Below, one piece after another: positions 19,701 to 22,700 of a stretch of 64,000 nt of DNA. Both the position numbers and the translations under genes were made by a program. The notes under the pieces are model-generated. The model was not told the origin of the DNA and made no database searches. It was given only the letters and a program-made list of their open reading frames with translations. Every line of letters starts with the position of its first letter. Position 1 is the first letter of the stretch. Source of the stretch: Mesostigma viride (taxonomy: Eukaryota; Streptophyta; Mesostigmatophyceae; Mesostigmatales; Mesostigmataceae); the NCBI GenBank assembly GCA_009746045.1, contig RPFO01000082.1:201093-265092 (forward strand). Reading direction: 5' to 3'.

Positions 19701-22700
19701 AACAATCGCTTGCCACCCTAGTTAGTATAAGCAGTTAGTATAAACAGTTAGTATAAACAGTTAGTATAAACATGGGCCGGAATCCTCACATAAACTTAGT
19801 TTACCAGAGAGTGGTCAGCGCTGGGTAAATATTGGTCCGTAACCTTAGAGCCGAGTGGCAAAAAGATTCCGGCCAATGTTTGTACTAAGTACACTCCATC
19901 ACAAGGCCACTACCATCGCTAGGCATCTGCCTCACTTGCGCACATGGTGGGTGGCAGCTGGCGACCATTACCTGCGCGCACGGTCGGTGGCAGCTGGCCG
20001 CCATTACCTGCGAGCACGGTGGGTGGAAGCTGGCGGCCATTACCTGCGAGCACGGTGGGTGGCAGCTGGCGGCCATTACCTGCGAGCACGGTGGGTGGCA
20101 GCTGGCGGCCATTACCTGCGCGCACGGTCGGTGGCAGCTGGCGGCCATTACCTGCGAGCATGGTCGGTGGCAGCTGGCGGCCATTACCTGCGAGCATGGT
20201 CGGTGGCAGCTGGGGGCCATTACCTGCGAGCACGGTGGGTGGCAGCTGGGGGCCATTACCTGCGAGCACGGTGGGTGGCAGCTGGGGGCCATTACCTGCG
20301 AGCACGGTGGGTGGCAGCTGGGGGCCATTACCTGCGAGCACGGTGGGTGGCAGCTGGCGGCCATTACCTGCGAGCACGGTGGGTGGCAGCTGGCGGCCAT
20401 TACCTGCGAGCACGGTGGGTGGCAGCTGGCGGCCATTACCTGCGAGCACGGTGGGTGGCAGCTGGCGGCCATTACCTGCGAGCACGGTGGGTGGCAGCTG
20501 GCGGCCATTACCTGCGAGCATGGTGGGTGGCAGCTGGCCGCCATTACCTGCGAGCACGGTGGGTGGAAGCTGGCGGCCATTACCTGCGAGCACGGTGGGT
20601 GGCAGCTGGCGGCCATTACCTGCGAGCACGGTGGGTGGCAGCTGGCGGCCATTACCTGCGCGCACGGTCGGTGGCAGCTGGCGGCCATTACCTGCGAGCA
20701 TGGTCGGTGGCAGCTGGCGGCCATTACCTGCGAGCATGGTCGGTGGCAGCTGGGGGCCATTACCTGCGAGCACGGTGGGTGGCAGCTGGGGGCCATTACC
20801 TGCGAGCACGGTGGGTGGCAGCTGGGGGCCATTACCTGCGAGCACGGTGGGTGGCAGCTGGCGGCCATTACCTGCGAGCACGGTGGGTGGCAGCTGGGGG
20901 CCATTACCTGCGAGCACGGTGGGTGGCAGCTGGCGGCCATTACCTGCGAGCACGGTGGGTGGCAGCTGGCGGCCATTACCTGCGAGCACGGTGGGTGGCA
21001 GCTGGCGGCCATTACCTGCGAGCATGGTGGGTGGCAGCTGGCGGCCATTACCTGCGAGCACGGTGGGTGGCAGCTGGCGGCCATTACCTGCGAGCACGGT
21101 GGGTGGCAGCTGGCGGCCATTACCTGCGCGCACGGTGGGTGGCAGCTGGCGGCCATTACCTGCGAGCACGGTGGGTGGCAGCTGGCGGCCATTACCTGCG
21201 AGCACGGTGGGTGGCAGCTGGCGGCCATTACCTGCGAGCACGGTGGGTGGCAGCTGGCGGCCATTACCTGCGAGCACGGTGGGTGGCAGCTGGGGGCCAT
21301 TACCTGCGAGCACGGTGGGTGGCAGCTGGGGGCCATTACCTGCGAGCACGGTGGGTGGCAGCTGGGGGCCATTACCTGCGAGCACGGTGGGTGGCAGCTG
21401 GCGGCCATTACCTGCGAGCACGGTGGGTGGCAGCTGGCGGCCATTACCTGCGAGCACGGTGGGTGGCAGCTGGCGGCCATTACCTGCGAGCACGGTGGGT
21501 GGCAGCTGGCGGCCATTACCTGCGAGCATGGTGGGTGGCAGCTGGCGGCCATTACCTGCGAGCACGGTGGGTGGCAGCTGGCGGCCATTACCTGCGAGCA
21601 CGGTGGGTGGCAGCTGGCGGCCATTACCTGCGCGCACGGTGGGTGGCAGCTGGCGGCCATTACCTGCGAGCACGGTGGGTGGCAGCTGGCGGCCATTACC
21701 TGCGAGCACGGTGGGTGGCAGCTGGCGGCCATTACCTGCGAGCACGGTGGGTGGCAGCTGGCGGCCATTACCTGCGAGCACGGTGGGTGGCAGCTGGCGG
21801 CCATTACCTGCGCGCACGGTGGGTGGCAGCTGGCGGCCATTACCTGCGAGCACGGTGGGTGGCAGCTGGTGGCCATTACCTGCGAGCACGGTGGGTGGCA
21901 GCTGGCGGCCATTACCTGCGAGCACGGTGGGTGGCAGCTGGCGGCCATTACCTGCGAGCACGGTGGGTGGCAGCTGGCGATGGTCTCCGGCTAACACCAG
22001 CAGCGGCCGCGATGGCGCGTGGTCCCGCAGGAAGAACTCGTCGCGCGCCTGCACCAGGGACTCCCTGGCCGCCTCGCCGTCCCACCCCGCAGGGTAGCGC
22101 AGGTAGGGCAGCGCCAGCAGCATCGCGGGCGTCGCAGCCTGGCTGGCCTCGTCGACCACGGCGGCGTCAAACAGGAGCCCGTCGCGGTCCTCGCCGCCCT
22201 GGCCTGTGCGGCATCGGGGATGTGGGTAGGCACTAGAGATATGGCACACATGTAAAGGTAGGCTGTACTTGGAAGTAGGCACTAAGGATATGGCACACAT
22301 GTAAAGGTAGGCTGTACTTGGAGGTAGGCACTAAGGATATGGCACACATGTAAAGGTAGGCTGTACTTGGAAGTAGGCACTAAGGATATGGCACACATGT
22401 AAAGGTAGGCTGTACTTGGAAGAAGGCCTTAAGGATATGGCACACATGTAAAGGTAGGCTGTACTTGGACGTAATTACGGACGGCTATAACTATTTTTTG
22501 TCGGCGCCGGGACATGGCACAAAGATTGGGTTGCATGGCTGCAAAAGCTAAGCATATGCAGGAGTGTTGAACGGCCTTGCACTGTGACCGCGCGGCCAAT
22601 GGCACGTGAAACTAGCGAAGCATGAACGGACGATACAGGGAACCTCGTAGCGCCGTCAACACCGCGGTGTAGGCAGGACAGGGGCAGAGAAACCCATGAT

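Follow-up and report, generated by a model that had tools for sequence, protein, structure and literature searches.

The window is a 64,000-bp stretch of contig RPFO01000082.1 of Mesostigma viride, and its GC content, taken every 2 kb, varies between 0.44 and 0.69. It contains a set of minus-strand exons that encode the motifs of an SF1 helicase; the P-loop is near 39.7 kb, and the series ends near 14.5 kb with the C-terminal RecA motifs. The splice sites of this gene were placed by hand, and a 355-residue draft protein was likewise joined by hand; it contains gaps, and a few of its residues are guesses. This draft matched the Pfam families AAA_12 (PF13087, 1.3e-38) and AAA_11 (PF13086, 4.1e-25) as well as the SMUBP-2 structure 4b3f (2.8e-43); a 103-residue helicase query by itself gave no matches at 1e-3. 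Having both the AAA_11 and AAA_12 domains and similarity to solved members of the SMUBP-2/UPF1-like SF1 helicases, the host gene resembles that type.

Motif III (GDHRQLPPT) is encoded at the very end of exon 11, and it is at this junction that the first-pass annotation correctly placed a 36-bp tandem array (Table 1). Its count of about 56 copies agreed with the estimate of TRF, and a decomposition of the minus strand gave 57 units of 36 bp starting at 21979 and running to 19928, the last one being degenerate. The description of the unit as the end of the exon plus the beginning of the intron was also accurate: in unit 1, the exon part (21979-21952, 28 nt) is followed directly by the intron part GTAATGGC (21951-21944, 8 nt), and the full sequence of this unit was found in 31 of the 57 units, itself included. 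A 36-nt exact match that recurs in this manner is not a product of chance, and the exon is shown to be the source of the unit because the exonic part of the unit codes for the conserved motif III.

Every unit had been said to offer an identical AG|GT donor and a CTCGCAG acceptor. The donor core CAG|GTAATG (CAGGTAATG) was indeed present in 56 of the 57 units, but unit 57 has CAA|GTGAGG instead, and CTCGCAG was present in 50, with a T-to-G change in the other 7. The longer junction string GTGCTCGCAG|GTAATGGC had exactly 43 occurrences. The reading frame of the array is open through 57 copies of QLPPT, counting that of the exon, up to a stop at 19921. The 34-nt core of the unit had no exact matches in viral contigs, Rfam gave no matches at the gathering score, ARAGORN gave no tRNAs, and the G-quadruplex score of the plus strand was modest (0.47).

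Table 1. Coordinates of the helicase exons, the 36-bp array, the modeled intron, and the arrays used for comparison
Feature	Position	Strand	Description
Helicase exon 11	21952..22203	-	Motif II (DEASQA) to motif III; based on translation, boundaries, and homology
Exon 12	19006..19074	-	23 residues; joins the end of exon 11 in frame
36-bp tandem array	19946..21979	-	TRF: period 36, 56.5 copies, 97% matches
Unit 1, source junction (CAG|GTAATGGC)	21944..21979	-	Last 28 nt of exon and first 8 nt of intron, exact
Unit 57, degenerate	19928..19963	-	First 18 nt intact, 8 changes in last 18 nt; donor CAA|GTGAGG
Whole intron, inferred	19075..21951	-	2877 bp, phase 1; donor CAG|GTAATG, acceptor GTGTGCAG|AC; hand-made gene model
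Non-array intron part with modeled acceptor	19075..19945	-	871 bp, of which 869 bp were compared with the unit
Comparison array B, 37 bp x 57	25487..27594	-	Other intron of the helicase gene, 177 bp from donor
Comparison array, 42 bp x 261	28289..39240	-	P-loop intron, 483 bp from donor
Comparison array, 49 bp x 5	22226..22473	-	Ends 22 bp before the exon 11 acceptor

The intron had been described as made of the array, but the array takes only the first 2006 bp of the modeled 2877-bp intron, which runs 871 bp further to its acceptor at 19075. The 869 bp beyond the array were not significantly similar to the unit (score, 17; null mean, 16.2; p 0.38), nor did exon 12 resemble it (score, 11; null mean, 11.6; p 0.63). 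A 57-residue ORF beginning with ATG (19336-19506, minus strand) was seen in the non-array part of the intron; Pfam gave nothing for it up to an E-value of 0.01.

When exons 11 and 12 were joined with none of the intronic units between them, the product aligned with both UPF1 and SMUBP-2 across motif III, needing a gap of just one residue, although the E-values of this short query were weak (0.0016 and 0.045, respectively). Retaining one unit cut the scores from 21.8 to 13.8 bits for UPF1 and from 17.1 to 12.7 bits for SMUBP-2, and the best UPF1 stretch shifted away from motif III. Since the join with zero units aligns and one retained unit lowers the scores, the array is most likely excised whole, from the first donor (21951), as far as homology to these helicases can tell. 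The strength of the donors does not decide which one is used, as the first donor and the decayed donor of the last copy each agree with 7 of the 9 bases in the U1 consensus. The frame was preserved in the join with 0 to 3 whole units.

The order of the unit types along the array showed a period of 14 to 15 units. At lag 15, the fraction of informative matches was 0.31, compared with a maximum of 0.25 in 500 permutations (p about 0.002). Divergence was greater toward the intron end, the mean number of changes being 0.32 in units 1 to 28 and 1.0 in units 29 to 56, and it was correlated with position (Spearman 0.35, p 0.008), the units being non-independent. This combination of a block pattern and a divergence gradient is consistent with growth by unequal exchange that duplicated whole blocks, the end next to the exon being the youngest.

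For comparison with the other repeats of the window, we picked 21 arrays by hand from 59 TRF rows; rows that overlapped, rows with only about two copies, and units shorter than 9 bp were dropped. The list also inadvertently lacks at least two arrays outside introns A to G, at 10969-11033 (21 bp x 3.0) and at 15023-15091 (17 bp x 4.1). Minisatellites are common in the helicase gene: six of the 21 listed arrays sit in the seven modeled introns A to G, and the only one to overlap an exon edge is the 36-bp array. We therefore rejected a general association of arrays with exon edges in this gene, as just one of the six intronic arrays touches an edge. Under uniform seeding and with the hand-made gene model (14 splice edges; collapsed span, 6264 bp), the number of edge-straddling arrays expected by chance was 0.43 and the probability of at least one was 0.36; thus, the location does not argue strongly for a special mechanism. 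AGGT occurred in the minus-strand unit of 5 of the 21 arrays, and in 4 of these 5 it was donor-like. Array B, which has no exon contact and was the sole control for identity and block structure, had the same mean identity as the 36-bp array (0.968), with 27 of 56 units equal to the commonest one compared with 31 of 56, but it had no block period (p 0.72). In identity, then, the exon-edge array is like an ordinary intronic minisatellite, and it differs from array B in block structure.

The best explanation, to which we give a probability of about 0.8, is a minisatellite that was seeded by a tandem duplication across the 5′ splice junction of a pre-existing intron and that works like the "mirage" repeats of lancelets. 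Such minisatellites are described for the genes Adh3, BflGb6, and BflGb9 (PMC3087553) and for TnC and PGBD5 (PMC3902484). They are minisatellite-like tandem duplications of an intron-exon boundary with AG/GT in many units, their inner units being homogenized and the edge unit excluded (PMC3087553, PMC3902484). Likewise, the units of the helicase array span an exon-intron boundary in tandem (28 nt of exon and 8 nt of intron, 57 units), and they are homogenized inside, where 31 of the 57 are identical, with the edge copy, unit 57, excluded by 8 changes in its last 18 nt. Lancelet mirages are reported to leave splicing undisturbed (PMC3902484) and to be unstable in length, also somatically (PMC3087553). 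They differ from the present array in size, as BflGb6 has 6 and 3 units in two haplotypes and not 57, and the unit lengths are 150 to 160 bp in the lancelet globins and 10 to 72 bp in Adh3, compared with 36 bp here (PMC3087553). The term "mirages" was found only for lancelets among the matches listed, which come from open-license papers, only part of the literature. Internal tandem repeats of human genes, as described by De Grassi and Ciccarelli (2009, PMC2812944), are alike in having units of about 30 bp, some at exon-intron boundaries, and in mostly keeping the frame when in coding sequence; unlike the helicase array, they have about 4 copies on average, lie in recent paralogues, and are supported by RNA, whereas splicing of the helicase is read from the sequence.

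According to this mirage-like explanation, a tandem duplication spanning the donor junction would have seeded the array in an intron older than the array itself, and unequal exchange or slippage would then have expanded it in blocks of about 15 units, placing the newer copies nearer the exon. Splicing would normally join the 21951 donor to the 19075 acceptor so that all other copies leave as intron; if an internal donor were used now and then, 12n residues would be inserted in frame. Inner donors may be leaky in this way; a period divisible by 3 together with an open frame could hint at tolerated retention, which we count against the explanation. What is new here is the 57 copies, their near-perfect identity, and the preserved frame; boundary-spanning minisatellites as such are already known.

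Alternatively, the array could be a functional splice module, in which in-frame donors compete with one another, or AG|GT sites act as ratchet points, with the result that the array is removed stepwise or that an insert ladder with steps of 12 residues forms next to motif III. The donor core that is identical in 56 of the 57 units and the frame kept for 0 to 3 units speak for this idea, which we nevertheless consider unlikely. Single 36-nt units seem too short to be removed as an ordinary intron, and the loss of UPF1 and SMUBP-2 score on insertion of one unit runs against an insert ladder. The first-pass annotation noted that the frame is preserved, and the frame is open, but its openness is not special: the 36-bp array is covered by five open stretches of about 700 to 800 codons on both strands, and the 42-bp x 261 array, whose period is also divisible by 3, is just as open (its two strands have open runs of 3420 and 2849 codons). 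Special openness was thus ruled out, and the chance of a period divisible by three with stop-free added codons was about 0.29. Selection on the donors fared no better than chance, as a 9-nt donor core free of variants in units 1 to 56 has a probability of about 10%. RNA structure that hides the donors was rejected as well, the exon end and first units folding no better than shuffles (z = +1.62). None of these three results supports selection for a splice module. In Caenorhabditis elegans, the intronic minisatellite CeRep25B shows enrichment close to multiple alternative splicing decisions (PMC4039745), and an effect of the array on splicing is therefore conceivable; against this, the lancelet cases are reported without aberrant mRNA (PMC3902484). 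A more elaborate version, in which dozens of identical donors of a length-variable module compete, slips release helicase isoforms with 12n-residue copies of motif III, and expansion proceeds under weak selection for frame, is less likely still.

The first-pass annotation read the array as an intron apparently caught in the act of being born. According to the Rogers model as summarized in PMC4974935, an exonic AGGT segment is duplicated and supplies the GT and AG of the new intron, and the peptide is unchanged, which means that the coding sequence resumes in the last copy. The CAG|GTAATG of 56 units agrees with such an origin, as do published novel introns at repeat-bearing exon edges of human genes. 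At the 36-bp array, however, the last copy does not lead back into the downstream exon; it is followed by the stop at 19921, by 871 bp in which no similarity to the unit was detectable, and by a separate acceptor outside the array at 19075; moreover, exon 12 is unlike the unit, and GTAATGGC is non-coding in the join that fits the homologues. The published fission yeast cases, the 24-nt repeats of SPOG_01682/SOCG_00815, are alike in being gained introns of short tandem repeats similar to a nearby exon, but there the similarity enters the neighboring exons (PMC3629103), and the helicase acceptor and exon 12 lie outside the array and are unlike it. The potato RdRp gene shares a duplication across a splice boundary (PMC4974935), but no new exon-exon junction was seen arising from the helicase copies. 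Intron birth is hence unlikely, and we regard it as a poor account of the locus. An ancient intron birth may have occurred, with the acceptor having moved later.

Long arrays are hard to assemble, which counts for an artefact that inflated the copy number or misplaced the array. One lancelet mirage is reported to have been aberrantly assembled, but the order of the block variants and the degeneracy of the end copy favor a real array, with the exact count less certain, and an artefact has the slightest chance of all these readings.

The array puts 56 copies of one donor core at or inside one intron, 31 of them within a wholly identical 36-nt unit, and thereby offers a natural test of 5′ splice site choice. 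Candidates for a choice beyond local sequence are position, exon definition, and first-come use. It also widens the range of minisatellites that span a boundary, of which those in lancelets are the best described, to a seemingly unrelated genome, at a copy number far above that of the lancelet globin cases, and shows how satellite DNA can arise from the edge of an exon with no evident harm to the gene.

Several other repeats of the window were observed. The 42-bp x 261 array, almost 11 kb long, occupies most of the modeled 11.8-kb intron right after the P-loop exon, and its minus-strand unit carries a donor-like AAGGTGAAT; interstitial telomere-like CCCTAAA repeats (39332-39418) were found about 90 bp past its end. 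Another array with a 36-bp unit (x 8; 15550-15837) lies downstream in what is apparently the helicase gene; its minus-strand unit carries a donor-like CAGGTATCT, and no exon edge was recognized there. Two arrays about 3 kb apart, at 51251-51486 and 54573-54852, have nearly the same 42-bp unit (GAGTAGTACTCGGTACTCG...), which suggests a dispersed satellite. On the plus strand, an ORF at 4908-7151 has a reverse transcriptase domain (PF00078, 6.8e-11) and is probably from a retroelement.
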